Source of the DNA: Venturia oleaginea
Lineage: Eukaryota > Ascomycota > Dothideomycetes > Venturiales > Venturiaceae
Direction: 5' to 3'
Length of the DNA: 64,000 nucleotides
NCBI GenBank assembly: GCA_013176395.1
Contig: JABMLP010000042.1
Coordinates: 1 to 64,000, forward strand
The notes below the pieces were generated by a model, which saw only the letters and a program-made list of their open reading frames with translations, had not been told where the DNA came from and searched no databases. How positions within the stretch are numbered: position 1 is the stretch's first letter; the number at the start of each line of letters is the position of its first letter. The translations under genes and the position numbers were made by a program. Below are positions 13,282 to 54,686 of this stretch, in pieces.

Positions 13282-13698
13282 CTATACCACTCCCAGTTGA
13301 TGTAAGAAGTTCTGGAACTGTTGACCATTCTTTGGCTTAGTCAACCCATCTGCAACCATGTCTGCAGTAGGACAGAACTCCACGATCAATTGGTTCCTTT
13401 CCCTCATTCTTCTGACATTGTTGTATGCGATGTCAATGTGTTTAGATCTCTCATGAGCATGGGAGTCCTTAACCAGGCTGAGACAAGCTTGGTTGTCTCC
13501 CTTCAGAACCATGAGAGGCTCAAAAGCGTTCTTGCCTACCATGTCCGGATGTCCCATTTCCCTCAAGAGCGATGAAAGAAATTGAGCTTGTTTACCACCG
13601 CTGCTCATTGCCATGTATTCAGCTTCCATCGTAGAGGTTGCTACTGACTTCATCTTCTTGCTCATCCAGACAACTGGTGCTCCAGCAAGAAAGAACAC
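13282..13698 (-). pseudogene. Copia-E pol, RNase H end
   Basis: The minus frame reads FFLAGAPVVWMSKKMKS, ATSTMEAEYMAMSSGGKQ, then LKGDNQACLSL and the terminal HERSKHIDIAYNNVR block, ending HQLGVV. This is the C-terminal RNase H of Ty1/Copia pol, which removes RNA from the RNA-DNA hybrid. The N-terminal continuation is at 19927-20931; Gypsy-A1 separates the two, with AACAC duplicated at 13694-13698 and 19927-19931. No LTR of Copia-E is visible. Confidence 0.85.
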
Positions 13699-13933
13699 TG
13701 TAAGAGTTCAACCCTCAAAGGTGTTTCGCAAGTGAGAGAAGACTGCTTGTATTTCGAAGTATCTAAGTACAGAGGAGAATGTGTAAGTGTATGAAGGACG
13801 ACTAGTATATATGTCCTCCGTATAAGAAAAAAGGACATGCTGCAAACAATCCCTGCTAGGCGCACGTGAAAGACTACCAGGTAGTGCTAAGAATCCATCC
13901 AGGATAAGTTGAGAAAGGATCTATCCTTTGACA
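13699..13933 (-). repeat. Gypsy-A1 3' LTR
   Basis: Plus-strand text runs TGTAAGAG...TTTGACA. A purine tract (GGGGGAGAAGAAGGGTAA on the minus strand) precedes it in element orientation. It lacks about 46 bases of U3 that the A2 LTR has. Confidence 0.88.
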
Positions 13934-14066
13934 TTACCCTTCTTCTCCCCCGTTTCCGTTGGGGCGGTTCTGCTTTTTGTACGCCTAGGAGGACGTAGAC
14001 TCGGTCCGTCGTTTTGAAAAACATCACCGTAGATACTTTCAAAGGTATCTAATGCGACAGTTTCTG
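13934..14066 (-). pseudogene. Gypsy-A1 chromodomain tail (B-derived)
   Basis: The frame reads VALDTFESIYGDVFQNDGP and ends GNVKG near the LTR. It matches the end of Gypsy-B pol (ALDAFESTYGNVLENDGP) and not the end of Gypsy-H. It follows the integrase zinc finger directly but in another frame, so the integrase core and most of the chromodomain are missing at a junction near 14060-14066. Confidence 0.8.
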
Positions 14067-14861
14067 TCGTTCGTACTTGGCCTTTTTGCAAAGAACACAC
14101 TTTCCTATTTCCTTGAAAACTTCCTGTCGCATGTGCGGGAAGTAGAAGGTATTCTGAAGTCGTGAAAGGACAATCTCTGGTCGGCAATGACCATTGAGTG
14201 GAGATTCGTGTTGATGTAGGATGTACTGTTTCCTAAGGCTCGTGGGAAGATATACCAAGTTGTTGAAGAGGAGCAATCCGTCTTCAATACGAGTATTCTG
14301 ATCTGCTGATTGAATGTAGCCTTGTACATCTGGATCCTTTGCTGCGCGTTCCTGACCTCTTGCCAATAAGAGGACTTTCCTGTCTGAAGTGATGAGACTT
14401 GGTGCACAAGTGCATCACCTTCTGTCGGAACAAAGCGCGTTCGACTTTCTCTTTTTCTCCTGCCATGAAGTCTTCTCGTCGACTTAATGCATCGGCGTTA
14501 ACGTTTTCCTTTCCTTTCTTGTAAAGGATATGGAAGTTGTAAGATGACAGTTCTTCTGACCATCTTAGTTGCCGTCGATTCAATTCCTTTGTCGTCGTGA
14601 AATTCCGCAGATTCTTGTGATCGGAATACACGGTAATCTTGTGTTTCGCTCCTTCAAGATAATGCTTCCAGTGCTTGAAGGCATCAGCTATGGCCATGAG
14701 TTCCTTGTCTGAAGTGGAGTAGTTGACTTCTGCTTTCAGGAATTTTCGTGCGTGGTAAGCTACTGGTCTAAGCTTTCCATCTGAATCGGGCTGGCTGAGG
14801 CATGCTCCGAGGGCTCGATCGGACGCATCCGCCTCGACTGTGGCTGTTTTTTCTGAGTTAA

Positions 14862-15172
14862 TGTAAGAGTTCAACCCTCAAAGGTGTTTCGCAAGTGAGA
14901 GAAGACTGCTTGTATTTCAAAGTATCTAAGTACAGAGAAGAAAGTGTAAGTACAGAAAGGATAGCTCGTATATATAATCCTCCTCTTACAATAGATCCTT
15001 CTAGAAAGTATCTTTAAATGGAAACGTGACAGCTTGCAAAATAGAACATGACAGCTTGCAAAATAGAACATGACAGCTTGCAAAATAGAACATGACAGCT
15101 TGCAGAATAACAAGAGAACAATTGGAAATCCAGTCATGGATAAGCTAGAGAGAAGGATTCCATCCCTTAACA
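14862..15172 (-). repeat. solo LTR of the Gypsy-B family
   Basis: It starts TGTAAGAG, ends CTTAACA and is bounded by GTTAA (14857-14861 and 15173-15177). It has four copies of the 21-base U3 repeat where other B LTRs have five, which explains 311 rather than 332 bases. Confidence 0.9.
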
Positions 15173-15943
15173 GTTAAACAGTTGCAGAATGGGTGGTGTT
15201 GTTAACCGTATCTTGAGTGCGTCAAAGGCCTTTTGCGCATGCTCGTTCCATTCCAAGGTAATCCCCTTCTTCATCAATCCCGTGAGGGGTTCTGCAACTT
15301 CGGAAAAGCTTTCGATGAATTGTCGATAATAATTCGCGAAGGCGTGAAATGACTGTACTCCTTTGACGTTCGAGGGTACCGGCCAATCGCGGACCTTCTG
15401 GTACATTTCCGGGTCCATCTCAAGTCCATCTTGAGAGACAAAACATCCAACGAACTTGATTCATTGCTTGTGGAATTCGCTTTTCGAGGGTTTCGGCCGC
15501 AAGTTAAATATCTGTAGTGCGCGGAGGACGGTTCGAACGTGATTGGCGTGTTCTTCGAACTTTCGATAGTAAACCAAAATGTCATCCATATAAACAGACA
15601 CAAACTTGTCTAAGTGCTCGCGAAGCACATTGTTCATATAGGCTTGCAGCGTCGCAGGGGCGTTTGTCAAACCAAAGGGCATGACAAGGTATTCGTAGTG
15701 CTCAAGGTGAGTGCGGAATGCTGTCTTCCACTCGTTACCTTCCTTAATCCTAATTCGATGAAAAGCCGCAGGAATATCGAATTTCGTGAACCATCTGGCT
15801 CCTTGGAGTCTGTCCCTCAACTCCTGGATTAAAGGCAGCGTGTACGCATTCTTCACCAAAATCTCATTTAGATGTCGGTAATCGACACACAATCGTTGTG
15901 AACCATCGGGCTTGGGTACGTAGAAAACTGAATATCCGGCGGG

Positions 15944-16275
15944 TGTTAAGGGATGGAATCCTTCTCTCTAGCTTATCCATGACTGGATTTCCAATTGTTC
16001 TCTTGTTATTCTGCAAGCTGTCATGTTCTATTTTGCAAGCTGTCATGTTCTATTTTGCAAGCTGTCATGTTCTATTTCGCAAGCTGCCATGTTCTATTTT
16101 GTAAGCTGTCACGTTTCCATTTAAAGATACTTTCTAGAAGGATCTATTGTAAGAGGAGGATTATATATACGAGCTATCCTTCCTGTACTTACACTTTCTT
16201 CTCTGTACTTAGATACTTGAAATATAAGCTGTCTTCCCTCACTTGCGAAACACCTTTGAGGGTTGAACTCTTACA
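15944..16275 (+). repeat. solo LTR of the Gypsy-B family, plus orientation
   Basis: It starts TGTTAAGG, ends TCTTACA and is bounded by GCGGG (15939-15943 and 16276-16280). Full 332-base length with five 21-base repeats. It splits the A1 reverse transcriptase. Confidence 0.9.
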
Positions 16276-17047
16276 GCGGGTGACTTCGACTCCCGGATGA
16301 ACTTCTTCTTCGTGAAATCGTCGATGTATTCACGAAGGGTTTCAAGCTGATCTTCCCTCAATGGGTAGATCTTGAACTTCTTTGGTTGTTCATTATTCTT
16401 AAGCTCGATCTCATAATCCCATGGTTGGTGTGGTGGAAGAGAATCTTCGATCGATTCCCCTTTAAAAAGTTCTGCAAATTCCTGGTACCCATGGGGAATT
16501 TGGAACACTGACCTATCCTCCTCTGTCTGGAGACGATAGCAGTATGCCACTTCAACGTGTGTAGGCCTTTTCCGCAAAGGTCTTTGTGCTGTCCGTGTTC
16601 TAGCGCGCATGCTAGCCTGCACGGGATATCGTTGGTCTGGGAACGTGAGCGTCAATGTTCTCCAGTCGATATGCGGATTGTGAGTTCGAAGCCACGACAG
16701 ACCAAGGATCAAATCCGAGTCTCCAATATTCGTGACGTCTAGAACAATCTGTTCTTTCCTCCCTTGTATCCATAAGATTATGTCTGCTTCGTAGATCACT
16801 ATGCCTCCATTGAAGTTGTCAGGTCTTCCATCAGCGATAGTTAGTGGATATGGATGCCGTTTCGACCGTACGGGTAGTTTCCATTCGTCGACCAATTTCT
16901 CGCTTAGAAGATTCCTATCGGCACCAGTGTCGATGAAGGCCCATGCTGGTACGTTGTCGATCTTTCCTTCGACCAGCATTTTGGATGTACCAAGGTTGTT
17001 CAGAAAATGAGGCGCTTCATTAGGATTCAACAGGGGCCTCTCTACTG

Positions 17048-18346
17048 TTAATCCTCCTCGTTTCCCGAATTCTCATCCCATTTGCGTGCTTGCTTTGTTT
17101 TGACTGCGATGTCCAATCGTCGGACAAGGTGTCGAAGGTTCCTTGCCCCATTCGGATGGTATGGGCAGGTGAAGTCAAGGCATGCATTTGGATAGACGTC
17201 TTTGCACTGAGAATCGTCCTGATCAATTGCTCGTTCAACGTCTCGTGTCAAACGTGAGAGCCGGAAGGTCATAAACTCTAGATTTTCCTTCGATTCTCCT
17301 TCGTTGGAGTTGTCTTCTACTGTAGACTCACTGTCGTCGCCCGACATAGACTGTAGAGATTCGTTTTCGTTTGGTGTAGACCAACTCCCGGAAATGGCTG
17401 GCAACTCTTGGAGTATTTCTCCAAGATCTTTCATTTCCTGGTGCTGAGGTAAATCGCATTCCTCATTCTCGCAGCAATTCATAGGTGAGTGTCTGTGGTG
17501 GACGTGCTGTACATCTGCACTGATGTTTGGGATTTTCATGATCTTCCTGAGGGTCGTATTGTTGACTTCCTTTTCGTGAACCCAGTGGAATTCCCAATCT
17601 GGTTCTCCTGGGTCTTCCTCGGACTTGTGCTCCCACAGTGGGCATTCTTTGACTTTGTACCAGTTCGATGGAATCATCCAGTGAAGATCGTGTTCCGGAT
17701 TCTTTCTCACGCTTGGGTATCTGCTGATAACTTTGACAGCAGCCATTGTATTCCCAACCCCGAATTGGTTTGTGCCATACTCTGCTTTTGGCACTTCCAA
17801 CTGAGTGCCATAAAGACCGGGTGAGCTAGATGACGAACTCATCATAGCGAGATGTCCTTTGACATTGCCGTTACCTTGGTAACCTCCTCTATCCCGAGGG
17901 TAGTATCCGGAGCTCTGCTTCTCGGATAGGTGTACTTTGCAGTCGTCCTCATAACAAGCCGTCCAGCTCAGTATGTTGTGGATTGGCGGTACTTACGCAT
18001 CGGATTGTAAAGCCTTGAGGTGTTCTGAGCCCATGGGTGAGTTTCCGAATCGTTGTCCCTGATTCGTGAAACGTCCAGTGTTGTTCTTTTTGGGCTTTCT
18101 GACCTGTAACTTTCTTGGATCCACGTGGACCGCTCTGAATCTTGTCGAGCTCCATTGGCTGCGGTCCGTATGAATCAACTCAAACACCTATATTCGCACG
18201 ACTGTTGTTTCCATGTCCTCGATAAGAACTAACTCCCTTCCTCTGAAGTTTTCTTTCGAATAGGCGGTTATCAATCTTGATTGACGTTCCAATCATCGAG
18301 TACAGGCTCTGAGGCTGAGTTTCCTTCCGACTGATTTCATCCTTGA
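17048..18346 (-). pseudogene. Gypsy-A1 gag (H-like, zinc knuckle deleted)
   Basis: It starts abruptly at the B/H junction (18346) inside sequence matching Gypsy-H gag (KDEISRKE, SMIG.SIKIDNRLFERKLQRKG). Compared with Gypsy-H, 53 bases are missing at about 18097, which removes the whole CCHC knuckle and shifts the frame. Downstream, the long C-terminal extension is still readable: TACYEDDCKVH, ECPLWEHKSE, CCENEECDLPQHQ and ACLDFTCPYHPNG, four cysteine-histidine units. The N-terminal capsid-like part of H gag is absent. A2 shares both the junction and the deletion, so they predate amplification. Confidence 0.8.
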
Positions 18347-18749
18347 CAGTCTGCTCTGCAACCCTTATTACTAAGGACGGAGCTCCTAGGGACTATGAAG
18401 GTCAAGGGTATTGAATCTCTCTTCCTAACTCTTTCTTCCCTCAGCTTATTACAGCTTCGACTCCTAAGACTACGCTGTCTTAGGATGACCTCTGATTTCC
18501 TCTTTGTAAATTTTGCGAGAATTTACTGTGGATTGGCCCTTACAGTTGGCCCTTGCTTCTTGGAGATTCTAGCACCTTCTAGAAAATCTCAGCTTGAATT
18601 CTCTTGAATTCCCTTTTTGTTTGGCCCTTGAGGTTGGCTCTTGAGGTTGGTCTTTGAGGTTGGCCCTTGCTTCTTGGGTTAGGACAAGTGTTCTCTTCTT
18701 GAAATTCCTTTTTGTTTGGCCCTTGAGGTTGGCCCTTGCTTCTTGGGTT
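18347..18749 (-). other. Gypsy-A1 leader shared with Gypsy-B
   Basis: This is nearly the same as 21335-21790 of Gypsy-B in reverse orientation, including GATTTTCTAGAAGGTGCTAG and repeated GGGCCAACCTCAAGGG. It is noncoding as far as I can see. Being shared by a defective and an intact element, it is a candidate for RNA packaging or translation signals (inference). Confidence 0.65.
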
Positions 18750-19075
18750 AGGTGTCCTCTTTAGGACCTTGACTCTACAGGCTCTTCCTGAGAGTACTGA
18801 AATGGCTGGGGTGTCCTCTTTAGGACCTTGACTCTGCAGGCTCGTCCTGAGAGTACTGAAAATGGCTTGGGTGTCCTCTTTAGGACCTTGACTCTACAGG
18901 CTCGTCCTGAGAGTACTGAAAATGGCTTGGGTGTCCTCTTTAGGACCTTGACTCTACAGGCTCTTCCTGAGAGTACTGAAATGGCTGGGGTGTCCTCTTT
19001 AGGACCTTGACTCTGCAGGCTCGTCCTGAGAGTACTGAAAATGGCTTGGGTGTCCTCTTTAGGACCTTGACTCAC
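18750..19075. repeat. 59/60-base minisatellite in A1 leader
   Basis: Units start with GTGTCCTCTTTAGGACC at 18752, 18811, 18871, 18931, 18990 and 19049. Two unit types occur: 59 bases with AAATGGCTGGG and 60 bases with AAAATGGCTTGG. The A2 copy has about 13 units. Three shorter units (CTCGCTC.ATGGAGGGCTTTCTC) lie at 19250-19330. Confidence 0.9.
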
Positions 19076-19394
19076 CAACAGGATTGACCTGGGAGTACTT
19101 TCAACTTGTGGGTGTCACTTTGGACGTTGTTGATATCCCTTCGCAAAGGACAAGTTTCAACAACTCTCAATCTTCGACGTTCGTCATTACTACACAATGA
19201 GAAGATGTAGCATCCGTCCTAGGTTATGAGGTACCTAGCAAACTCTTTCTCAATGCCTCGCTCAATGGAGGGCTTTTTCAGTGCCTCGCTCGATGGAGGG
19301 CTTTCTCGGTACCTCGCTCAATGGAAGGCTTTCTCTTTGCTCTGACGATTGCTGCAGAGACTCTCTCTTACTGTCAGCAAGAGGTATTGGTGCG

Positions 19395-19478
19395 GTACTT
19401 AGATAATGTAAGAGTTCAACCCTCAAAGGTGTTTCGCAAGTGAGAGAAGACTGCTTGTATTTCGAAGTATCTAAGTAC
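19395..19478 (-). promoter_or_regulatory. Gypsy-A1 primer binding site and self-primer
   Basis: GTACTTAGATA at 19395-19405 (the primer site in element orientation is TATCTAAGTAC) lies one base outside the LTR. TATCTAAGTAC at 19468-19478 inside the LTR is its exact complement, eleven bases, as in Tf1-type self-priming. Confidence 0.7.
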
Positions 19479-19926
19479 AGAGGAGAATGTGTAAGTGTAG
19501 GAAGGACGACTAGTATTGTAAGAGTTCAACTCTCAAAGGTGTTTCGCAAGTGAGGGAAGACAGCTTATATTTCAAGTATCTAAGTACAAAGAAGAAAGTG
19601 TAGGTACAGGAAGAACAACTTGTATATATAATCTTCCAAGTAGGAAAAGGACATGCTGTCCTGAGAAGAGAATAGAAAGGAGTAGAAGCGCATGTGAAAC
19701 GGTCCCTGAATAATCCCTGCTAGGCGCACGTGAGAACTACCAGGTAGTGCTAAGAATCCATCCAGGATAAGTTGAGAAAGAATCTATCCTTTGACAAGTA
19801 TATATGTCCTCCGTATAAGAAAAAAGGACATGCTGCAAACAATCCCTGCTAGGCGCACGTGAAAGACTACCAGGTAGTGCTAAGAATCCATCCAGGATAA
19901 GTTGAGAAAGGATCTATCCTTTGACA
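19407..19926 (-). repeat. Gypsy-A1 5' LTR, split by a solo LTR
   Basis: It consists of 19407-19516 and 19802-19926, together 235 bases, with one difference from 13699-13933. The insertion point lies at its TATATAT promoter region. Confidence 0.88.
19517..19796 (-). repeat. solo LTR of the A2 subtype inside the A1 LTR
   Basis: It starts TGTAAGAG, ends TTTGACA and is bounded by AGTAT (19512-19516 and 19797-19801). Its U3 matches the 281-base A2 LTR, not the 235-base A1 LTR, so A2-type elements were active after A1 inserted. Confidence 0.92.
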
Positions 19927-20931
19927 AACACCCATCCTAGGATGGAGACCCTGTCTGCCTTGTCCATAGCGTAATCTGCATCTGAGTATCCCACAAGCCC
20001 AGTATGTCCTCCAATGCTGTATTCCAGTCCAAGATCTGGAAATGACCTGAGATACCTGGCTACTTTCTTGATTGCCTTCTCATGGAATACCGTTGGGTCA
20101 GATGCATAGGAGCTGAGTCTTCTAATAGCAAAAGCTATATCTGGCCTGCACATCACATTGGCCACATCAAAGTTCCCATCTGCTCCTGGTAGCTCCCACT
20201 ATCTGCTCAAGGATCTGTTGGTCCTGATTTTCTCAGATCATCATAGGAATCCATGGGTGATAGCGTGGGCTTCCCTTTTTCCGCCGACATTCCAAACTTT
20301 GCGAGGGCCTCCCTGATGTAGTGTCCTTGGTCAAGCTTCAGGGTTCTCTTCGTTCTGTCTCTAGTGATCCTCATGCCAACAATCTTGTCTGGTTCTCCTA
20401 GGTCCTTGATCTTGAAGATCTTCCCAAATTCTTGCTTGAACCATTTGATATTGTCGAGATTTGAGGATGCAATAGGTATGTCGTCTACCCATGTAAAAAT
20501 CATGATGTCTCTCTCCTTGTGAACCAAAAGACAGGGGTCAACTTCTGATTGGGCAAAGCCCAGCTTCTTCAATTTCTCTACACAGAGTTGGTTCCAGTCT
20601 CTTGCTGCTTGTTTCAGACCATACAAGCTCTTCAGCATCTTGAAGACTTTGCCTGGTGGAATGTCTACTCCTGGGGGAGGGATCATGAAGATGTCCTCTT
20701 TCAGGAATGATTCGGTGAATGCATTGTTTACATCAACTACATGTATGTTGAGATTCTTCTTGGCAGCAGTAGCCATAAAGCATCTCAGGGTATCATGCCT
20801 AACAGTAGGTGCAAAGGTGTCCGTGAAGTCTACATCTAGTTTCTGTGAGAATCCTCTGGCCACAAGCCTTGCCTTGAATTTATCGATTGCTCCACTGATG
20901 AGGTACTTCACGTCGAATATCCATTTGGATG
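19927..20931 (-). pseudogene. Copia-E pol, reverse transcriptase part
   Basis: The frame from 20931 reads KWIFDVKYL, KFKARLVARGFSQ, VVDVNNAF, LYGLKQAARDW and the catalytic WVDD (20480-20491), then LGEPDKIVGMRI. A frame break near 20170-20206 leads to MCRPDIAFAIRRLSSY and YSDADYA (RNase H start), which would continue at 13698. The N-terminal part of pol and the 5' LTR are missing where the Gypsy-B LTR begins. Confidence 0.85.
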
Positions 20932-21263
20932 TGTTAAGGGATGGAATCCTTCTCTCTAGCTTATCCATGACTGGATTTCCAATTGTTCTCTTGTTATTCT
21001 GCAAGCTGTCATGTTCTATTTTGCAAGCTGTCATGTTCTATTTTGCAAGCTGTCATGTTCTATTTCGCAAGCTGCCATGTTCTATTTTGCAAGCTGTCAC
21101 GTTTCCATTTAAAGATACTTTCTAGAAGGATCTATTGTAAGAGGAGGATTATATATACTAGCTATCCTTCCTGTACTTACACTTTCTTCTCTGTACTTAG
21201 ATACTTGAAATATAAGCTGTCTTCCCTCACTTGCGAAACACCTTTGAGGGTTGAACTCTTACA
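20932..21263 (+). repeat. Gypsy-B 5' LTR
   Basis: TGTTAAGG...TCTTACA. U3 holds five tandem 21-base units (GCAAGCTGTCATGTTCTATT) at about 20998-21103. A TATA box (TTATATATA, 21149-21157) stands 36 bases before the putative transcript start GTACTTAGATA at 21193. Confidence 0.9.
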
Positions 21264-21275
21264 TTATCTAAGTAC
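21193..21275 (+). promoter_or_regulatory. Gypsy-B self-primer and primer binding site
   Basis: GTACTTAGATA at 21193-21203 in the LTR is the exact complement of TATCTAAGTAC at 21265-21275, one base past the LTR. No tRNA 3' end fits this site. The distance to a TATA box supports the LTR copy lying at the RNA 5' end, as in Tf1. Confidence 0.72.
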
Positions 21276-21927
21276 CTCAGTCTTACAAAGGAAGAAAGGC
21301 TCACAGAGAGCAAGCTCCAAAAAGGAATTTCAAGAAGAGAACACTTGTCCTAATCCAAGAAGCGAGGGCCAACCTCAAGGGCCAAACAGAAAGGAATTTC
21401 AAGAAGAGGACACTTGTCCTAACTCAAGAAGCAAGGGCCAACCTCAAAGGCCAACTTCAAGGGCCAACCTCAAGGGCCAAACAAAAAGGGAATTCAAGAG
21501 AATTCAAGCTGAGATTTTCTAGAAGGTGCTAGAATCTCCAAGAAGCAAGGGCCAACCGAAAGGGCCAATCCAAAAAGGGAATTCAAGAGAATTCAAACTG
21601 AGATTTTCTAGAACGTGCTAGAATCTCCAAGAAGCAAGGGCAGGTCATCCTAAGACAGCGTAGTCTTAGGAGTTGAAGCTGTAATAAGCTGAGGAAAGAA
21701 AGAGCTAGGGAGAGAGATTTAATACACTTGGCCTTCACAGTCCCTGGGAGCTCTGTCCTTAGTAATAAGGATTGCAGAGCGGACTATAGTGTAAAAAATC
21801 CTTCTGGGATTCTATAGTCACCTTCCTATACTAATAGGCATTGACTCTATACTGCCTAGCAAATCTCTAGAGTAGAGCCTAGGAGTGTGTATAGTAGTGC
21901 TCTCTATTATCTCTCATAGGTGAAAAT
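21264..21927 (+). other. Gypsy-B 5' leader
   Basis: No gene is seen. It is made of imperfect repeats (AAGGAATTTCAAGAAGAG, CAAGAAGCAAGGGCCAACC, GGGAATTCAAGAGAATTCAA). A 21335-21790 stretch is shared with A1 and A2 leaders. Confidence 0.7.
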
Positions 21928-22950: not shown

Positions 22951-22976
22951 CCTCTATCCAAAGTCGTGGATGGAGG
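22951..22976 (+). promoter_or_regulatory. gag-pol recoding hairpin, Gypsy-B
   Basis: Immediately after the gag TAG, CCTCTATCC pairs with GGATGGAGG (nine pairs, one G-T) around the loop AAAGTCGT. The pol frame (-1) stays open through the gag end, and GGAAAAA precedes the stop. Together they suggest a -1 frameshift signal. Confidence 0.65.
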
Positions 22977-25094: not shown

Positions 25095-25270
25095 TATTAC
25101 GGGACGGTAGCTGGAAAGACGCAGCATACTCGTAGCCAAAGATTGTTTAGATTCAGTTAAAGAGTGAAGGTATCTACAAACAGAGAACCTCAATGAGGTT
25201 CTTTCTCTATACTAGGCTCAATCAGGCTTAGGCTCTTAGCCTATACCAACCATGGGCCATGCCCATAACA
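25095..25270 (-). repeat. Gypsy-C1 3' LTR
   Basis: Plus text TATTACGGG...CCATAACA; in element orientation it starts TG and ends TA, not CA. The tract next to it (TTACCCCCCTCC in plus) is the purine tract GGAGGGGGGTAA of the element. Confidence 0.92.
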
Positions 25271-25282
25271 TTACCCCCCTCC

Positions 25283-28200: not shown

Positions 28201-29359
28201 GCTTGATGCGGAGCCGATGAAATGCCGCTCTGACGTCAAGTTTGGTGTACCAACGCGCTGTTGCTAGATTTCGTAGGGTTTCTCGGATTAGTGGCAATGG
28301 GTAGCGGTCCGATCGAGTGATTCGATTCAGTGCCCGATAGTCTACACACATCCGAATGCCTCCACCTGGTTTCCTTACAAATAAGACTGGGGCTGCCGCT
28401 GGTGAGTTGCTGGCGCGTATCCAGCCCTTGTCCATATAGTCCGAAAGTGTTTTTCGTAGGACTAATAGCTCTTCCCTCGACATGCCGTATAATGGGCCCC
28501 AAGGAACTTCTGCCTCGCGACCTTGTTCATCTCGTATCAATTCGATAACGTGATCGCGACCCTCTTGATGGGGCGCGATCTCTCCGTCTTCGTCGTCGAG
28601 AAAGGCATCAGCATGCTCTGCTATTTCTTCTGGTATCTCTTGTCGGATTTCTTCCTCAGTCTTTCTCTGTTTTCTTTCTGCTAACTTGCTTAGGGCCTTG
28701 TTGATATCCGACATCGAGATAGCCAGCACTTGTGTACCATCCGGTCCATCTCTTCTCAACCGTCGCTGGGCCCTTCCAACAATAGCTGCAAATACAGATC
28801 CTGACACTAGACAAGCCGCCCGCACGTGAGCGAGCCGGTCTCGCGCTTTGGTGTTCTGTTCTAGCCACCCCTTTTCTCTTACCGTGATGCGCTGGGATCC
28901 TTGACCAATAAGCAGCTTTCTCTTAGCTGCTATATATCGCACCCAGTTTCTCTCTGCCCATGCCTTGCCTAGGATAATAGGGAAGCTCAATCCTTTCACT
29001 ATATACCCATAGACTCGCTCTGCTCGACCATCAATGTCGATCGTAGCGTAGGTCATGTGCGTAATACGGAGGTCTTCTCCGTTCTCGTGGCTCTCTTTAG
29101 CCAGTGCCAATTGTTTGGTGTCAATTGGGATGCGCGGTAGACGATGTGTTTGGACACTCTTCTCGCTGAAAGCAGCATAAGGGAGGCAGCCGTTATCAAA
29201 GAAGGATTCGGTGAAAGAAGTTCCGTTGATCAAGGTATCTATCAAGAAGGGTGTACTTTCCATCCTATCCTTTGCTGCTTTGATTTCTCTTATGCCTGGT
29301 AGCTTTGTAATGTCTTCGCCATGTACATCTACTTCAGACCCTCGTGCGCGACGATGCAC
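25283..29359 (-). CDS. Gypsy-C1 pol polyprotein with chromodomain
   Basis: About 1,358 codons, open; the frame lies -1 to gag and is open upstream of its stop, so the first codon (GTG at 29359) is arbitrary. Domains from the N-terminus: protease with FFDNGCLPYA (D-N-G, residue about 55); RT with FVRKPGGGIRMCVDYRALN and YMDD (28040-28051); RNase H with ECDCSGYALGGTLSQ; integrase HHCC finger (HVTGHPGRDS, CDVCGRTG) and core (SIDFMTDLP, TSDRGSNW, HPQTDGATERMNQE); GPY-like linker; chromodomain near the end (EVERILRAEKK, LLIKWKGY). Chromodomains steer integration to marked heterochromatin. This is the best candidate for an active autonomous element in the window. Confidence 0.93.
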   Translation of the reverse strand: MHRRARGSEVDVHGEDITKLPGIREIKAAKDRMESTPFLIDTLINGTSFTESFFDNGCLPYAAFSEKSVQTHRLPRIPIDTKQLALAKESHENGEDLRITHMTYATIDIDGRAERVYGYIVKGLSFPIILGKAWAERNWVRYIAAKRKLLIGQGSQRITVREKGWLEQNTKARDRLAHVRAACLVSGSVFAAIVGRAQRRLRRDGPDGTQVLAISMSDINKALSKLAERKQRKTEEEIRQEIPEEIAEHADAFLDDEDGEIAPHQEGRDHVIELIRDEQGREAEVPWGPLYGMSREELLVLRKTLSDYMDKGWIRASNSPAAAPVLFVRKPGGGIRMCVDYRALNRITRSDRYPLPLIRETLRNLATARWYTKLDVRAAFHRLRIKHGDEWKTAFRTRFGLFEWLVTPFGLAGAPASFQRYINGVLRESLDICCSAYMDDVLIWSDGDYLDHMVKVNQILAKLKTAGLRLDLSKCEFAVQEVKYLGFIITAGEGIKVDPEKVAAIKEWEAPVNVTGVRSFLGFANFYRDFIDNFSELSDPLIKLTRKAVAFVWNKEHENAFQVLKELFISAPILAHWNPDLDTVLECDCSGYALGGTLSQKDMKGKLRPVAYFSRKLTAAECNYEIHDKELLAVIKSIEHWRGELRSVAAPFKVLTDHKNLRYFMTAQRLSERQARWSLILSEYQFQLEFRAGKLAQRPDALSRRHQDMPHDKNDERLQGRVAQLIKDEWLPPLSERTTETIAIQALICPVNTPNTSNSTWDVIREPQQNTGLDGRHQLTAENGQHRSTTRYGQNRSVAKGCDLFEKPELQLLWDRAIAEDQSYEAIHTAIVTGERSFPPELKLSVQLPECEVDDHGAVTRRGILWVPDWEPLRTTLVQQTHDSHVTGHPGRDSMLAILSRSFFWPQQYKTVRQFVRNCDVCGRTGIWRDKKRGLLKPLPIPARFHSELSIDFMTDLPAEENGPKYLMVITDRLLKSVTLEAMTTMSAKECAKRFLQCHYRYHGFPMALTSDRGSNWTGRFWRKLCELTKIEQRLSTAFHPQTDGATERMNQEVLRYLRAFIAYSQLDWPTLLPTAMLALNNRDSSVTGMSPFYLTHGYHAEPIQKVQRISPSNSPTADAETFVQRIEEAQEYAQAAMAWSQQKMENDANRSRQAAETLKKGDKVWLNLRNINTPQLSKKLSWTQAKYTVENQISPMVYELADLPSGIHNRFHVDLLRRAATDTLPSQESDDTQPPPLVPQTEETEAEFEVERILRAEKKRVGRGWVRQLLIKWKGYADPDWQPRSLFTEVEDLDRFEAEYSKGDGVGEDIGAQTGARRNRVAVASAFESATSWQKRCMAFVCLIIPPTTPSLVLHTR

Positions 29360-29365
29360 AAGGGT
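29338..29365 (-). promoter_or_regulatory. gag-pol recoding hairpin, Gypsy-C1
   Basis: In element orientation ACCCTTGTGC pairs with GCACGAGGGT (ten pairs, one G-T) around the 8-base loop ATCGTCGC, two bases after the gag TAG. The loop shares A..GTCG with the B and F loops. The C2 copy is at 53528-53555. Confidence 0.65.
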
Positions 29366-29367
29366 AG

Positions 29368-30462
29368 CTAGTTTTCCGACTCTGATGAGGCTTCCTGTAG
29401 GGAGTCATCGGTATGCTGTGTGATTACCGCAGTGACCTGAGTCTTTGGACGTGTTGCTGGTCGGAATTCGCATACGTTCGGATGGTGCTTGGGCTTCTTA
29501 CAGCGCCCGCATTTGCCCGCTTGTATAAGTGCCAAGAACTCTGTTTGGGATCGCCATTTCGCTCTAGGTCGTCGGTCCTTCTTCGCATCCTTTCCGAGTG
29601 TATCGACCCGAGCTATCAGTGCTGCGATCTGCGCTGAAAGGGCGTTGATGCCAGTCATTTCGACATCGCCTTCTGCGTCACGACTGACTGTTTGGGGTGA
29701 TTGTGGCCTCCCTCGAGTCGTTGGCGTCTCCTTATCCGTACTTGGATAGCGGCGTTGGTGGGATAGAGCCTCTGTCTTCGTCGCGAAGTACTGTACATCT
29801 TTTACGTAAGTGTCGTAGTCGTCCCTGGACAATCGCACTGATTTCAAGGTCTGTTGGAGGGAGTAGTTGAGCGCGTTGTTCATGATAGTGATCTTTGAGG
29901 CTCTTTGCGGCGCTAGGGATCCAGCTTGCGATGTCAGTTGTTCGAACTGCTGGCGGAAGTCTTCGAACGGTTGTCTGCTGCCTTGGCTAATCTTGTTCAG
30001 CTCGTCGAGAGCTTTAGCTTCCGCTTCATGATCTAAGAACTTGTCGTCCATATGCTTGATAAAGGACTCGGGTTCGTAGTTGTCATGTTGCTCTCCATTG
30101 CTTAGCCATTGGATGACGCGTTGTTGTTTCTCTGTCGGAAGCCCGTTGAAGATGTTCGCGCATATTCCTTGATTGCTTCCAAGCTTCCCATTTTCAACAG
30201 TGATTTTTGTCTTGATCTGCCATCTGAACAGCGTGTAGTTGTCTCTTTTCCCGTCCCATTTAGGCCATGCAATAGCTTTTGCACCGGTGTTCCCATCAAC
30301 ACTGACTGCGGTCAGAGCTGCCACCAATTGTTGTACGGTGTCAGGCGAATTTGCTCGAGCCATTGAGAGTTTGTCGATTCCTTGCGTAATGCTCGCGATT
30401 GGGTCGTCGTCGGTAGTAGGGGTGTAGGTTGTAGGAGTCGATAGGGTACTGTTGCTACGCAT
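29368..30462 (-). CDS. Gypsy-C1 gag polyprotein
   Basis: The first ATG (30462) opens 364 codons beginning MRSNSTLS. Gag domain: IAWPKWDGKRDNYTLF at about residue 65, MDDKFLDHEAEAKALDEL, and FRQQFEQLTSQAGSL in the middle. A zinc knuckle CGRCKKPKHHPNVC (C-x2-C-x4-H-x4-C) lies near the end, followed by an acidic tail ending SESEN. The stop at 29368-29370 is followed by the hairpin and by pol in the -1 frame. No defect is visible. Confidence 0.93.
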   Translation of the reverse strand: MRSNSTLSTPTTYTPTTDDDPIASITQGIDKLSMARANSPDTVQQLVAALTAVSVDGNTGAKAIAWPKWDGKRDNYTLFRWQIKTKITVENGKLGSNQGICANIFNGLPTEKQQRVIQWLSNGEQHDNYEPESFIKHMDDKFLDHEAEAKALDELNKISQGSRQPFEDFRQQFEQLTSQAGSLAPQRASKITIMNNALNYSLQQTLKSVRLSRDDYDTYVKDVQYFATKTEALSHQRRYPSTDKETPTTRGRPQSPQTVSRDAEGDVEMTGINALSAQIAALIARVDTLGKDAKKDRRPRAKWRSQTEFLALIQAGKCGRCKKPKHHPNVCEFRPATRPKTQVTAVITQHTDDSLQEASSESEN

Positions 30463-30485
30463 CAAGTACACCTAGGTTTGTAAAG

Positions 30486-30560
30486 AACTGAATCTATATT
30501 ACGGGACGGTAGCTGGAAAGACGCAGCATACTCGTAGCCAAAGATTGTTTAGATTCAGTT
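30486..30560 (-). promoter_or_regulatory. Gypsy-C1 primer binding site and self-primer
   Basis: AACTGAATCTA (30486-30496) abuts the LTR; TAGATTCAGTT (30550-30560) inside the LTR is its exact inverse, eleven bases, 53 bases away from the LTR edge. Confidence 0.7.
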
Positions 30561-30672
30561 AAAGAGTGAAGGTATCTACAAACAGAGAACCTCAATGAGG
30601 TTCTTTCTCTATACTAGGCTCAATCAGGCTTAGGCTCTTAGCCTATACCAACCATGGGCCATGCCCATAACA
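30497..30672 (-). repeat. Gypsy-C1 5' LTR
   Basis: It is identical to 25095-25270 by eye, which indicates very recent insertion. Confidence 0.92.
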
Positions 30673-30677
30673 CGTTA

Positions 30678-31721
30678 TTACCTCCAAAGCTTTGGATTAA
30701 CGTTCTAGAGGATAAGACTCCTGCAAGAGAAGAAGCTGCCCAAGAAAATGCTCAAGAAGTAGACAAAGAACCTATCCCCTTTATACAAAATCCCTTTCTC
30801 TCAGGTGATCTAAGGGATAGATGGGAAACTGCACTCGAAGGAGATCTAGACTACAGACGTATTTTCCAAAGCGTTCTAAAGCAAGATAGGCAGTTCCCAT
30901 CTAAGCTAAAGGTTCCTACTTCTATAGGAGATTGTAAAGTCGAAAACAACCAGCTCTACTATAGAGACCGAATCTGGTTGCCCTCCTACGAGCCTCTCTT
31001 AACAGGAGTAATTCAAGAAATACACGATTCAGTCCTATCAGGGCATCCTGGACGAGAAGCTACTATTGCTATTCTCTCCAGACAGTTCTACTGGCCGGGA
31101 TTTGCTCAAGATATACGTCAGTTTATACGCAATTGTGACGTCTGCGGAAGAACTTCAGTCTGGCGAGACAAAAAGAAAGGTTTACTTAAACCTCTTCCTG
31201 TCCCTAGCCGTATCTGGCAAGATATTTCAGTAGACTTCATAGTCGAATTACCAGAGAGCCAAAGATGCACAAGACTCTGCGTTATTACTGACCGCTTGGG
31301 TAAAGGAACTATCCTGTTCCCAGTGCCTAAAGAACAGTTTGGAGCTGAAGGATTTGCAAAACTATTTATGCAGAACTACGTAAGATTACACTGGCTTCCT
31401 AGATCTCTAGTCTCAGATAGGGACACGCAATTTGTTAATGCTTTCTGGAAAGAAGTTTGTCACCTTCTTAAGATAGAGAGAAGACTCTCTACAGCGTATC
31501 ACCCTGAGACTGATGGATCTACGGAAAGAAGAAATCAAGAAGTTGAAGCCTATCTACGTAAGTTCTGTACATTTAGTCAGAACGACTGGGTCGAGCTCCT
31601 GCCTATTGCTCAAATATGCCTCGATAATAGACCAAACCAAGCTACGGGCCTATCGCCTTTCTTCTTAACCCACGGTTATAACATTGAGCATATAGGAACT
31701 GTTGAAGCTCCCCAGGAAACC
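30678..31721 (+). pseudogene. Gypsy-B pol part 2: integrase
   Basis: It continues part 1 in frame past C1. Integrase zinc finger: SVLSGHPGREATI and CDVCGRTSVWRDKK; core: SVDFIVELP, VSDRDTQF and HPETDGSTERRNQE, giving the D-D-E triad. It runs to THGYNIEHIG and stops at the A2 insertion (AAACC, 31717-31721). No stop codon interrupts it. Confidence 0.88.
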
Positions 31722-32002
31722 TGTAAGAGTTCAACCCTCAAAGGTGTTTCGCAAGTGAGAGAAGACTGCTTGTATTTCAAAGTATCTAAGTACAAAGAAG
31801 AAAGTGTAGGTACAGGAAGAACAACTTGTATATATAATCTTCCAAGTAGGAAAAGGACATGCTGTCCTGAGAAGAGAATAGAAAGGAGTAGAAGCGCATG
31901 TGAAACGGTCCCTGAATAATCCCTGCTAGGCGCACGTGAGAACTACCAGGTAGTGCTAAGAATCCATCCAGGATAAGTTGAGAAAGGATCTATCCTTTGA
32001 CA
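31722..32002 (-). repeat. Gypsy-A2 3' LTR
   Basis: TGTAAGAG...TTTGACA, identical to 37302-37582 by eye. U3 contains about 46 bases absent from the A1 LTR. Confidence 0.92.
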
Positions 32003-34451
32003 TTACCCTTCTTCTCCCCCGTTTCCGTTGGGGCGGTTTTGCTTTTTGTACGCCTAGGAGGACGTAGACTCGGTCCGTCGTTTTGAAAAACATCACCGTA
32101 GATACTTTCAAAGGTATCTAATGCGACAGTTTCTGTCGTTCGTACTTGGCCTTTTTGCAAAGAACACACTTTCCTATTTCCTTGAAAACTTCCTGTCGCA
32201 TGCGCGGGAAGTAGAAGGTATTCTGAAGTCGTGAAAGGACAATCTCTGGTCGGCAATAACCATTGAGTGGAGATTCGTGTTGATGTAGGATGTACTGTTT
32301 CCTAAGGCTCGTGGGAAGATATACCAAGTTGTTGAAGAGGAGCAATCCGTCTTCAATACGGGTATTCTGATCTGCTGATTGAATGTAGCCTTGTACATCT
32401 CGATCCTTTGCTGCGCGTTCCTGACCTCTTGCCAATAAGAGGACTTTCCTGTCTGAAGTGATGAGACTTGGTGCACAAGTGCATCACCTTCTGTCGGAAC
32501 AAAGCGCGTTCGACTTTCTCTTTTTCTCCTGCCATGAAGTCTTCTCGTCGACTTAATGCATCGGCGTTAACGTTTTCCTTTCCTTTCTTGTAAAGGATAT
32601 GGAAGTTGTAAAATGACAGTTCTTCTGACCATCTTAGTTGCCGTCGATTCAATTCCTTTGTCGTCGTGAAATTCCGCAGGTTCTTGTGATCGGAATACAC
32701 GGTAATCTTGTGTTTCGCTCCTTCAAGATAATGCTTCCAGTGCTTGAAGGCATCAACTATGGCCATGAGTTCCTTGTCTGAAGTGGAGTAGTTGACTTCT
32801 GCTTTCAGAAATTTTCGTGTGTGGTAAGCTACTGGTCTAAGCTTTCCATCTGAATCGGGTTGGCTGAGGCATGCTCCGAGGGCTCGATCGGACGCATCCG
32901 CCTCGACTGTGGCTGTTTTTTTTTTGAGTTAAACAGTTGCAGAATGGGTGGTATTGTTAACCGTATCTTGAGTGCGTCAAAGGCCTTTTGCGCATGCTCG
33001 TTCCATTCGAAGGTAATCCCCTTCTTCATCAATCCCGTGAGGGGTTCTGCAACTTCGGAAAAGCTTTCGATGAATTGTCGATAATAATTCGCGAAGGCGT
33101 GAAATGACTGTACTCCTTTGACGTTCGAGGGTACCGGCCAATCGCGGACCTTCTGGTAAATTTCCGGGTCCATCTCAAGTCCATCTTGAGAGACAAAACA
33201 TCCAACGAACTTGATTCGTTGCTTGTGGAATTCGCTTTTCGAGGGTTTCAGCCGCAAGTTAAATATCTGTAGTGCGCGGAGAACGGTTCGAACGTGATTG
33301 GCGTGTTCTTCGAACGTTCGATGATAGTAAACCAAAATGTCATCCATATAAACAGACACAAACTTGTCTAAGTGCTCGCGAAGCACATTGTTCATATAGG
33401 CTTGCAGCGTCGCAGGGGCGTTTGTCAAACCAAAGGGCATGACAAGGTATTCGTAGTGCTCAAGGTGAGTGCGGAATGCTATCTTCCACTCGTCACCTTC
33501 CTTAATCCTAATTCGATGAAAAGCCGCAGGAATATCGAATTTCGTGAATCATCTGGCTCCTTGGAGTCTGTCCCTCAACTCCTGGATTAAAGGCAGCGTG
33601 TACGCATTCTTCACCAAAATCTCATTTAGATGTCGGTAATCGACACACAATCGTTGTGAACCATCGGGCTTGGGTACGTAGAAAACTGAATATCCGGCGG
33701 GTGACTTCGACTCCCGGATGAACTTCTTCTTCGTGAAATCGTCGATATATTCACGAAGGGTTTCAAGCTGATCTTCCCTCAATGGGTAGATCTTGAACTT
33801 CTTTGGTTGTTCATTATTGTTGAGCTTGATCTCATGATCCCATGGTTGGTGTGGTGGAAGAGAATCTTCGATCGATTCCCCTTTAAAAAGTTCTGCAAAT
33901 TCCTGGTACCTATGGGGAATTTGGAACACTGACCTATCCTCCTCTGTCTGGAGACGATAGCAGTATGCCACTTCAACGTGTGTAGGCCTTTTCTGCAAAG
34001 GTCTTTGTGCTGTCCGTGTTCTAGCGCGCATGCTAGCCTGCACGGGATATCGTTGGTCTGGGAACGTGAGCGTCAATGTTCTCCAGTCGATATGCGGATT
34101 GTGAGTTCGAAGCCATGGCAGACCAAGGATCAAATCCGAGTCTCCAATATTCGTGACGTCTAGAACAATCTGTTCTTTCCTCCCTTGTATCCACAAGATT
34201 ATGTCTGCTTCGTAGATCACTATGCCTCCATTGAAGTTGACAGGTCTTCCATCAGCGATAGTTAGTGGATATGGATGCCGTTTCGACCGTACGGGTAGTT
34301 TCCATTCGTCGACCAATTTCTCGCTTAGAAGATTCCTATCGGCACCAGTGTCGATGAAGGCCCATGCTGGTACGTCGTCGATCTTTCCTTCGACCAGCAT
34401 CTTGGATGTACCAAGGTTGTTCAGAAAATGAGGCGCTTCATTAGGATTCAA
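32003..34451 (-). pseudogene. Gypsy-A2 protease-RT-RNase H-integrase finger and tail
   Basis: Protease (AFIDTGADRNLL, 34340 region; ILGLPWLRTHNP) and the RT start are open down to 33549, where a TGA replaces the tryptophan codon seen in Gypsy-H. RT continues in another frame with MPFGLTNAP and YMDD (about 33337-33348). A run of T at 32915-32924 shifts the frame before RNase H (YSDHKNLRNF near 32690). The integrase finger ends near 32135 and joins the B-like tail (VALDTFESIYGDVF), as in A1. No integrase core exists, so the element cannot integrate by itself. Confidence 0.85.
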
Positions 34452-34462
34452 CAGGGCCTTCT

Positions 34463-35766
34463 CTACTGTTGATCCTCTTCGTTTCCCGAATTCTCATGCC
34501 ATTTGCGTGCTTGCTTTGTTTTGACTGCGATGTCCAATCGTCGGACAAGGTGTCGAAGGTTCCTTGCCCCATTCGGATGGTATGGGCAGGTGAAGTCAAG
34601 GCATGCATTTGGATAGACGTCTTTGCACTGAGAATCGTCCTGATCAATTGCTCGTTCAACGTCTCGTGTCAAACGTGAGAGCCGGAAGGTCATAAACTCT
34701 AGATCTTCCTTCGATTCTCCTTCGTTGGAGTTGTCTTCTACTGTAGACTCACTGTCGTCGCCCGACATAGACTGTAGAGATTCGTTTTCGTTTGGTGTAG
34801 ACCAACTCCCGGAAATGGCTGGCAACTCTTGGAGTATTTCTCCAAGATCTTTCATTTCCTGGTGCTGAGGTAAATCGCATTCCTCGTACTCGCAGCAATT
34901 TATAGGTGAGTGTCTGTGGTGGACGTGCTGTACATCTGTACTGATGTTTGGGATTTTCATGATCTTCCTGAGGGTCGTATTGTTGACTTCCTTTTCGTGA
35001 ACCAGTGGAATTCCCAATCTGGTTCTCCTGGATCTTCCTCGGACTTGTGCTCCCACAGTGGGCATTCTTTGACTTTGTACCAGTTCGATGGAATCATCCA
35101 GTGAAGATCGTGTTCCGGATTCTTTCTCATGCTTGGGTATCTGCTGATAACTTTGACAGCAGCCATTGTATTCTCAACCCCGAATTGGTTTGTGCCATAC
35201 TCTGCTTTTGGCAATACCAACTGAGTGCCATAAAGACCGGGTGAGCTAGATGACGAACTCATCATAGCGAGATGTCCTTTGACATTGCCGTTACCTTGGT
35301 AACCTCCTCTATCCCGAGGGTAGTATCCGGAGCTCTGCTTCTCGGATAGGTGTACTTTGCAGTCGTCCTCATAACAAGCCGTCCAGCTCAGTATGTTGTG
35401 GATTGGCGGTACTGACGCATCGGATTGTAAAGCCTTGAGGTGTTCTGAGCCCATGGGTGAGTTTCCGAATCGTTGTCCCTGATTCGTGAAACGTCCAGTG
35501 TTGTTCTTTTTGGGCTTTCTGACCTGTACCTTTCTTGGATCCACGTGGACCGCTCTGAATCTTGTCGAGCTCCATTGGCTGCAGTCCGTATGAATCAACT
35601 CAAACACCTATATTCGCACGACTGTTGTTTCCATGTCCTCGATAAGAACTAACTCCCTTCCTCTGAAGTTTTCTTTCGAATAGGCGGTTATCAATCTTGA
35701 TTGACGTTCCAATCATCGAGTACAGGCTCTGAGGCTGAATTTCCTTCCGACTGATTTCATCCTTGA
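34463..35766 (-). pseudogene. Gypsy-A2 gag (H-like, zinc knuckle deleted)
   Basis: It carries the same 5' junction with B leader (35766) and the same 53-base loss of the CCHC knuckle (about 35515) as A1. One frame shift near 35005 separates two readable parts. The cysteine-histidine units of the extension remain (TACYEDDCKVH, CCEYEECDLPQHQ, ACLDFTCPYHPNG). Confidence 0.8.
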
Positions 35767-36967
35767 CAGTCTGCTCTGCAACCCTTATTACTAAGGACAG
35801 AGCTCCTAGGGACTATGAAGGTCAAGGGTATTGAATCTCTCTTCCTAACTCTTTCTTTCCTCAGCTTATTACAGCTTCAACTCCTAAGACTACGCTGTCT
35901 TAGGATGACCTCTGATTTCCTCTTTGTAAATTTTGCGAGAATTTACTGTGGATTGGCCCTTACAGTTGGCCCTTGCTTCTTGGAGATTCTAGCACCTTCT
36001 AGAAAATCTCAGCTTGAATTCTCTTGAATTCCCTTTTTGTTTGGCCCTTGAGGTTGGCTCTTGAGGTTGGTCTTTGAGGTTGGCCCTTGCTTCTTGGGTT
36101 AGGACAAGTGTTCTCTTCTTGAAATTCCTTTTTGTTTGGCCCTTGAGGTTGGCCCTTGCTTCTTGGGTTAGGTGTCCTCTTTAGGACCTTGACTCTACAG
36201 GCTCTTCCTGAGAGTACTGAAATGGCTGGGGTGTTCTCTTTAGGACCTTGACTCTGCAGGCTCGTCCTGAGAGTACTGAAAATGGCTTGGATGTCCTCTT
36301 TAGGACCTTGACTCTACAGGCTCTTCCTGAGAGTACTGAAATGGCTGGGGTGTCCTCTTTAGGACCTTGACTCTGCAGGCTCGTCCTGAGAGTACTGAAA
36401 ATGGCTTGGGTGTCCTCTTTAGGACCTTGACTCTACAGGCTCTTCCTGAGAGTACTGAAATGGCTGGGGTGTCCTCTTTAGGACCTTGACTCTGCAGGCT
36501 CGTCCTGAGAGTACTGAAAATGGCTTGGGTGTCCTCTTTAGGACCTTGACTCTACAGGCTCTTCCTGAGAGTACTGAAATGGCTGGGGTGTCCTCTTTAG
36601 GACCTTGACTCTGCAGGCTCGTCCTGAGAGTACTGAAAATGGCTTGGGTGTCCTCTTTAGGACCTTGACTCTACAGGCTCTTCCTGAGAGTACTGAAATG
36701 GCTGGGGTGTCCTCTTTAGGACCTTGACTCTGCAGGCTCGTCCTGAGAGTACTGAAAATGGCTTGGGTGTCCTCTTTAGGACCTTGACTCTACAGGCTCT
36801 TCCTGAGAGTACTGAAGTGGCTGGGGTGTCCTCTTTAGGACCTTGACTCTGCAGGCTCGTCCTGAGAGTACTGAAAATGGCTTGGGTGTCCTCTTTAGGA
36901 CCTTGACTCTACAGGCTCTTCCTGAGAGTACTGAAATGGCTTGGGTGTCCTCTTTAGGACCTTGACT
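35767..36967. repeat. Gypsy-A2 leader with expanded minisatellite
   Basis: 35767-36170 is the B-like leader. From 36172 to 36967 about 13.5 units of the 59/60-base repeat follow, alternating strictly between the AAATGGCTGGG and AAAATGGCTTGG types for most of the array, so the true period is about 119 bases. 119 is not a multiple of three, so the array is unlikely to be coding. Confidence 0.9.
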
Positions 36968-37289
36968 CACCAACAGGATTGACCTGGGAGTACTTTCAAC
37001 TTGTGGGTGTCACTTTGGACGTTGTTGATATCCCTTCGCAAAGGACAAGTTTCAACAACTCTCAATCTTCGACGTTCGTGATTACTACACAATGAGAAGA
37101 TGTAGCATCCGTCCTAGGTTATGAGGTACCTAGCAAACTCTTTCTCAATGCCTCGCTCAATGGAGGGCTTTCTCAGTGCCTCGCTCGATGGAGGGCTTTC
37201 TCGGTACCTCGCTCGATGGAGGGCTTTCTCTTTGCTCTGACGATTACTGCAGAGACTCTCTCTTACTGTCAGCAAGAGGTATTGGTGCG

Positions 37290-37373
37290 GTACTTAGATA
37301 ATGTAAGAGTTCAACCCTCAAAGGTGTTTCGCAAGTGAGAGAAGACTGCTTGTATTTCAAAGTATCTAAGTAC
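37290..37373 (-). promoter_or_regulatory. Gypsy-A2 primer binding site and self-primer
   Basis: GTACTTAGATA (37290-37300) one base outside the LTR is the inverse of TATCTAAGTAC (37363-37373) inside it. Confidence 0.7.
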
Positions 37374-37582
37374 AAAGAAGAAAGTGTAGGTACAGGAAGA
37401 ACAACTTGTATATATAATCTTCCAAGTAGGAAAAGGACATGCTGTCCTGAGAAGAGAATAGAAAGGAGTAGAAGCGCATGTGAAACGGTCCCTGAATAAT
37501 CCCTGCTAGGCGCACGTGAGAACTACCAGGTAGTGCTAAGAATCCATCCAGGATAAGTTGAGAAAGGATCTATCCTTTGACA
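37302..37582 (-). repeat. Gypsy-A2 5' LTR
   Basis: Identical to 31722-32002 by eye; bounded on the right by AAACC (37583-37587). Confidence 0.92.
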
Positions 37583-37587
37583 AAACC

Positions 37588-49919: not shown

Positions 49920-49924
49920 GTTAT

Positions 49925-53549: not shown

Positions 53550-53557
53550 AAGGGTAG

Positions 53558-54652: not shown

Positions 54653-54686
54653 CAAGTACACCAAGGTTTGTAAAGAACTGAATCTA

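Follow-up and report, generated by a model that had tools for sequence, protein, structure and literature searches.

Hybrids between families, parasites without Gag and jumps between RNAs are established for the retrotransposons of plants and yeast, and the Ty3/Gypsy family described here, which we call A, is a further and well-supported case. Two copies of it, A1 and A2, lie in the stretch analysed (the window), which is contig C37:1-64000 (JABMLP010000042.1) of the 46.08-Mb, 61-contig genome of Venturia oleaginea and whose readable content consists mostly of long terminal repeat (LTR) retrotransposons nested inside each other. We put at roughly 0.7 the probability that A is a non-autonomous mosaic with cis-acting ends from the clade of a Gypsy family B, a core from a lineage H' related to a Gypsy family H, and two fixed illegitimate junctions, which originated by template switching and is helped by B.

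BARE1 and BARE2 of barley belong to the Ty1/Copia superfamily. BARE2, a parasite of BARE1, cannot make Gag, keeps packaging signals and is packaged in the particles of the other family (PMC3735527), and it apparently arose when the polymerase switched between RNAs packaged together (PMC1950507), while its pol could according to the authors still be translated (PMC3735527). A differs in being without the integrase core as well and in having a broken reverse transcriptase (RT) frame in most copies read, and its packaging in foreign particles is a prediction. Among the Athila elements of Arabidopsis, the recombinants Va-rec, VI, IIIb and IIIa-rec combine LTRs and part of gag from one family with the rest from another, and the recombinant non-autonomous family VI has multiplied (PMC2410132); many non-autonomous Athilas however keep frames under purifying selection (PMC2410132), whereas those of A are broken. 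A jump of RT between different co-packaged RNAs has likewise been proposed for VejuL and for the template-switch complexes of the Triticeae (PMC1950507). In the Triticeae complexes, however, two elements are fused around shared LTRs, while A is bounded by a single LTR pair and contains two internal joins. Ty1 and Ty2 of yeast are close relatives, and the joins of A, which link non-corresponding places, are unlike those of their hybrids. These hybrids are recombinants between two families in a fungus (PMC2410132), and recombination has furthermore been described within the Onsen family (PMC5668417). Self-primed chromoviruses resemble A in that the primer binding site (PBS) is complementary to the element's own LTR and not to a transfer RNA, although A itself has lost the chromodomain. 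The Tf1/sushi-type elements are chromoviruses of this self-primed kind. Self-priming as a mechanism has been described (PMC2864245). A search of a survey of fungal LTR elements (PMC3248453) for the terms 'mosaic' and 'chimer' found neither of them, and no description of the A family was found in the open-licence PubMed Central literature as judged by title and start of abstract. The gain is accordingly a clear case and not a new idea, the principle being known from plants and yeast.

Mosaic structure of the A elements

Similarity within the window was assessed by blastn of the window against itself and domains were assigned with Pfam, whereas genome-wide DNA similarity searches were evaluated on the 40 best candidates scored per search. 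In the following, L-numbers denote genome stretches read, C-numbers with digits denote contigs, and C alone denotes a family related to B. The elements concerned are:

31722-37582, minus strand: A2, inside the B element 20932-38564 (plus strand)
13699-19926, minus strand: A1, inside an element read by eye as Copia
20932-38564, plus strand: B, of the clade that gave the ends; LTRs 20932-21263 and 38233-38564, leader 21349-21785, gag open reading frame (ORF) 21928-22950
57688-64000 in the window and to 64720 on the contig, minus strand: H, relative of the core donor; LTRs 57688-58157 and 64251-64720, target duplication CTCCG

A1 contains three nested solo LTRs that divide it into pieces, and B is interrupted by another Gypsy element at 25075-30672 and by A2. 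In the comparison of the window with itself the match of A1 to H extends to 18346 (facing H 63579) and its match to B sets in at 18348 (facing B 21785), the corresponding positions in A2 being 35766 and 35768, and on the 3' side similarity to H begins at 14062 in A1 and at 32131 in A2, both facing H 59845. An initial annotation of the window had placed the switches at 18346/18347, 35766/35767, about 14060-14066 and about 32130, which blastn shows to be correct to 1-2 bases. Its assignment of the leader (18347-18749 in A1, 35767-36170 in A2) to B is likewise sound, as the A2 leader is 94% identical to B across all 403 bp and has no scoring match to H, and the two copies of C compared with it reach 90% and 89% over 156 bp. 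Since both B and C carry the leader upstream of a B-like gag, it belongs to the B clade; it is absent from H and was not seen in the H' stretches read, so that the recombinant is A rather than B. The same annotation regarded the 3' tail as matching B, and this stands as regards the clade, given a z score of 16.7 against the B tail and -0.75 against the H tail (500 shuffles), but not as a close match, the tail being much more diverged from B than the leader; one B copy (L083) holds a 55-bp stretch at 80%. The core from gag to the integrase finger, for which B gives no scoring match in any of six segments of A2, is indeed of the H lineage as had been proposed, but does not derive from the H of the window, since H' copies are 92-98% identical to the A2 segments and window H 81-93%. 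We can conclude that A is a mosaic of B-clade ends (R-U5, self-primer site, leader and tail) around an H' core, with segments nearest to different families and breakpoints that are fixed in many copies. The parts of the two elements are as follows:

37302-37582, minus strand: A2 5' LTR, 281 bp, TG...CA, 100% identical to 31722-32002
37363-37373, minus strand: A2 self-primer in R of the 5' LTR, GTACTTAGATA, an 11-nt exact complement of the PBS at LTR position 210, also in B
37290-37300, minus strand: A2 PBS, 1 nt inside the LTR end
36990-37301, minus strand: A-specific 5' untranslated region (UTR), without scoring match to B or H except for the PBS at its edge
36164-36968, minus strand: A-specific tandem array of A2, 119-bp unit (2 x ~60), 6.8 copies
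35767-36170, minus strand: A2 leader, of B-clade origin
35766/35767, minus strand: A2 5' junction, B-clade leader to H' gag
32131-35766, minus strand: A2 core from H' (C-terminal part of gag, protease, RT, RNase H, integrase zinc finger), with disrupted reading frames
32130/32131, minus strand: A2 3' junction, H' integrase finger to B-clade tail, with integrase core and chromodomain missing
32003-32130, minus strand: A2 tail, relic of a B-type post-chromodomain C-terminus and purine-rich tract
31722-32002, minus strand: A2 3' LTR, identical to the 5' LTR
19407-19926, minus strand: A1 5' LTR, into which an A2-type solo LTR (19517-19796), flanked by a 5-bp duplication ATACT of its own, is inserted
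18744-19073, minus strand: A1 tandem array, unit as in the 119-bp array of A2
18347-18749, minus strand: A1 leader, B-clade
14062-18346, minus strand: A1 core from H', interrupted by B-type solo LTRs 14862-15172 and 15944-16275
13699-13933, minus strand: A1 3' LTR, 235 bp

A1 and A2 have the TG...CA LTRs, PBS, purine-rich tract and 5-bp target duplication of Ty3/Gypsy elements, the latter being AAACC in A2 (31717-31721 and 37583-37587) and located at 13694-13698 and 19927-19931 in A1. Of the Ty3/Gypsy series protease, RT, RNase H and then integrase, Pfam recognises protease in both elements, RT in A2 and RNase H in A1; the finger of A is seen only by alignment to H, whose own Pfam finger ends 3 residues before the break, and the integrase core is absent. 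The chromodomain typical of chromoviruses is present in B and H and missing from A, in which the finger joins the post-chromodomain tail directly, and a stop is found just past this join. The copy number of the 119-bp array varies between A copies.

Some segments have no close match in either parent, namely U3 (37424-37582), which gives no scoring match to B or H, and the 5' UTR of about 1.1 kb (36171-37301), which gives none in B, C or H apart from the shared PBS. The donor on the B side was a relative within the B clade rather than present-day B.

Three other donors were considered. Window H was rejected as core donor because H' copies are closer in the aligned segments, except for the RT-RNase H segment of L075, which at 93% equals H. 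A third parent for gag, suggested by an identity of 70-72% to H by blastn, was rejected in view of the 92-98% of H' over the gag segments. C is not closer than B as a donor of the leader (89-90% over 156 bp as against 94% over 403 bp), though it shares more of the bases adjacent to the junction. The C family, seen at L080:700-1301 and L082:490-1501, has a B-like leader and gag with about 73% DNA identity to B and occurs at 10 places in the genome by pattern; L081 and L084 are B copies.

The H' lineage

A genome search with H across the 3' breakpoint gave 74 candidates, and the 40 scored comprise 16 places at 99-100% that are H itself, 7 places with integrase at 83-91% (one in two pieces), 2 places ending 6 and 49 bases beyond the breakpoint, and 15 A copies that end at the breakpoint or at most 3 bases from it. 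Eight of the nine places that are not H (L071-L078) were read at least in part, the one on contig C8 being left out, and they belong to an older subfamily of H, H', the copies of which are mostly truncated or rearranged. In L076 and L078 the sequence crosses the 5' breakpoint of A uninterrupted and enters a gag of H type, and L071, following an internal deletion, also shows the N-terminus of such a gag. The B leader is found in none of the eight stretches, that of L078 starting inside gag. A search with the H pol protein gave 6,834 matches, none of which, among the 120 listed, was informative on A.

At L078:4012-4101 and in L079 the match to H' ends 6 bases beyond the position of the 3' breakpoint of A and gives way to other sequence, which resembles a pogo-type transposase gene. 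L077 contains a beta-lactamase-related gene of host type that is 88% identical to Venturia effusa and 81-82% to V. inaequalis and V. nashicola, which points to a host among the Venturiales.

Coding defects

A is without the N-terminal, capsid part of Gag and has neither integrase core nor chromodomain. Further lesions were scored relative to the open frame of H from RT to the finger, with A2 counted once, and two frameshifts in RT are present in 27/31 and 26/31 of the A loci covering them, and a stop in 20/23. The H' loci covering these sites have none of them (0/3 and 0/3 for the frameshifts, 0/5 for the stop) and carry other lesions of their own. Missing or broken genes are thus shared by the amplified copies, and from the presence of the RT lesions in most of them it follows that most copies read were amplified without a working RT. 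None of the A copies seen would have been able to move alone, as judged from the missing Gag and integrase regions, and the earlier description of A as a defective element that keeps the priming and leader signals of B is upheld.

Cis-acting signals and a candidate helper

The first 13 bases of the primer site after the LTR are identical in A1, A2 and B. The site just inside the LTR of A2 and B pairs over 11 nt with R (GTACTTAGATA), and the same site is present in A1. The PBS of A2 and B pairs over at most 7 nt with the H LTR, and the site of H, which has its own, different 11-nt self-priming pair, pairs over at most 5 nt with the LTR of A or B. A2, B and H each thus have a PBS complementary to the presumed R in the manner of self-primed elements, each with the pair of its own clade. 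U5 ends in identical bases in A2 and B but in others in H, R-U5 of A2 (122 bp) is 92% identical to B, and the purine-rich tract before TGT, found in all three, ends in TAATGT in A2 and B and in CTATGT in H. The proposal that primer site and R-U5 are B-like is therefore correct, yet it does not extend to U3 and the 5' UTR.

A hence carries the priming, leader and U5-tip signals of the B clade. Of the 205 candidates for a 451-bp piece of B leader and gag, the 40 that were scored are all 100% identical, which points to recent activity and makes B a plausible helper, and the cis signals suggest that B proteins may mobilise A. What a retrotransposon has to have in common with its helper can be read from A as from a natural experiment that is preserved unusually well, for A keeps the self-primer pair, leader and U5 tip of B, its core is foreign and mostly dead, and its junctions nonetheless occur dozens of times in the genome. 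Should B be the helper, the cis sequences would by themselves be enough for mobilisation, and jumps between unlike RNAs would create new parasites in a filamentous fungus.

Amplification of A

Copies were counted with 43-mers spanning each junction in the whole 46-Mb genome. The 5' junction occurs at 59 places (54 exact, 5 with one mismatch) and the 3' junction at 46 (37 exact, 8 with one mismatch and 1 with two), while reversed-pattern controls gave 0 matches. A same-strand 3' junction lies within 20 kb of 37/59 5' junctions, and the spacing is 3,577-3,646 bp in 25/59, which indicates that one founder was amplified and bears out the idea that the mosaic arose once and then multiplied. The identical LTRs of A2 together with its 5-bp duplication testify to real transposition.

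Spread mainly by segmental duplication rather than retrotransposition would account for the regular arrays in which A junctions occur on C11, C34, C18 and C27, and for four A copies that share one left flank, but it agrees poorly with the distinct 5-bp target duplications shown by A1, A2 and 4/8 further copies with both edges visible. As a general explanation it is highly improbable, duplication holding for part of the copies only. The arrays are located at C11:1117926-1149364 (4 copies, ~10.48 kb), C34:156488-176511 (3 at 10.01 kb) and C34:200874-204530 (3 at 1.83 kb), with pairs at 10.46 kb at C18:665359-675821 and C27:289535-299997, and they are probably duplicated blocks of nested retrotransposons.

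Origin of the mosaic

The joins lie at bases shared by the parents, GAC/GGAC on the 5' side and ACAA on the 3' side, the latter being clearer since three copies retain the base of H near the join. Each connects non-corresponding places of the parents and drops coding sequence, which fits a polymerase jumping between unlike RNAs, and template switching between B-clade and H' RNAs is consequently likely, though unproven. An RT copying B-clade RNA from its 3' end would have switched, where a few bases are shared, to an H' RNA packaged alongside it and, by a second jump, from there back to the B-clade leader; B-clade Gag, RT and integrase would then act in trans to package, reverse-transcribe and integrate the resulting A RNA, which primes itself.

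Several observations do not sit well with this account. Neither the tail nor U3 nor the 1.1-kb 5' UTR has a close counterpart among the B and C copies read, so that the exact donor of the ends is missing, and the 5' tip of the A LTR (TGTCAAAGG) shows no clear preference for B (TGTTAAGGG) over H (TGTTACGGA). The breakpoints are shared genome-wide by the two sets of junction places, but 22/59 5' junctions are without a same-strand 3' junction in the adjacent 20 kb, and among the 37 paired 5' junctions four have a single 3' junction in common. The other 4/8 copies with visible edges have no matching 5-bp flanks. Furthermore, L062-L065 on contig C34 lack both common frameshifts, and not every copy therefore stems from the same broken frame; L063-L065 are however array units of which just the last third is covered, L062 carries two different lesions, and the four are perhaps an early branch of the family.

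It also has to be said that a same-orientation insertion of H' into a B-clade element, followed by two deletions that removed the inner LTRs and neighbouring genes, would leave an identical sequence. Such nesting is common in the window, as seen from A2 in B and from the solo LTRs in A1, and joins at microhomology fit end-joining deletions as well. This origin at the DNA level is nevertheless unlikely, since it takes three events in one lineage with outer ends that were functional each time, and since no intermediate was found in the search for the one guessed; a B chromodomain joined to the A tail indeed had 0 genome matches at up to 3 mismatches, a weak test as the donor sequence was only guessed.

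Alternatively, A could be a deletion derivative of a further autonomous family with naturally B-like ends and an H'-like gag-pol, a notion to which the existence of several families sharing the leader, B and C, lends some weight. The A-type 5' UTR, for which 40 of 57 candidates were scored, has a 5' junction within 3 kb in 33/40 cases and none in 7/40, and 1/40 scored tails has no 3' junction. The seven UTRs are at C56:1573654, C45:71145, C45:61622, C11:1110867, C15:1070871, C5:291320 and C4:1588095, and the tail is at C45:1569292. The four places on C34 with fewer RT lesions leave room for a less broken ancestor. However, at least one of the seven UTRs, that on contig C15, adjoins the LTR of another A copy (L068), and the B leader is in none of the eight H' stretches read, it not being reached in L078. 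Moreover, the two missing pieces coincide exactly with the sequence switches, which is not what simple deletions within a family would produce, and of the 25 H-type places scored with H across the 3' breakpoint none is as close to one of the 59 5' junctions as would be normal; the two closest downstream, at 7.1 and 11.8 kb, are H at 100%, unlike the A core. A complete autonomous element with the ends and core of A, which had been named as the finding that would overturn the mosaic, was looked for and not found among the 40 best candidates scored per DNA search, the eight UTR and tail places without a junction being for the most part not read, and we regard such an ancestor as improbable.

A different possibility, compatible in our opinion with only a rather small chance of being true, is that the ends of A are a pre-existing parasitic shell (A-type LTR, 1.1-kb UTR with the 119-bp array, B-type primer and leader) that swaps its cargo. 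The H' core would then be one cargo, and the junction-less A-type UTRs on C4, C5, C45, C56 and C11 would, just as doubtfully, carry others; if so, A would be an LTR parasite of one helper family.

Neighbouring elements

B is flanked by GGATG (20927-20931) and TTTAG (38565-38569) and has no 5-bp target duplication, though its LTRs are 99.7% identical, and the copy in the window may be a recombinant of two B copies. A 22-bp minisatellite of 4-5 copies is found in U3 of B-type LTRs at 20995-21103, 38296-38404, 16007-16115 and 15023-15109. L080:2-743 is a relative of the repeat in which H has landed and does not contain H; the H flanks 64720-64972 and 57176-57690 adjoin there at 95-96% identity. 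A third Gypsy family is present at 25075-30672 and 49916-54870 (minus strand), with copies that are 99.88% identical over 4956 bp, the first having ORFs of 1358 and 367 aa at 25283-30471 and the second a shorter pol ORF of 1125 aa.

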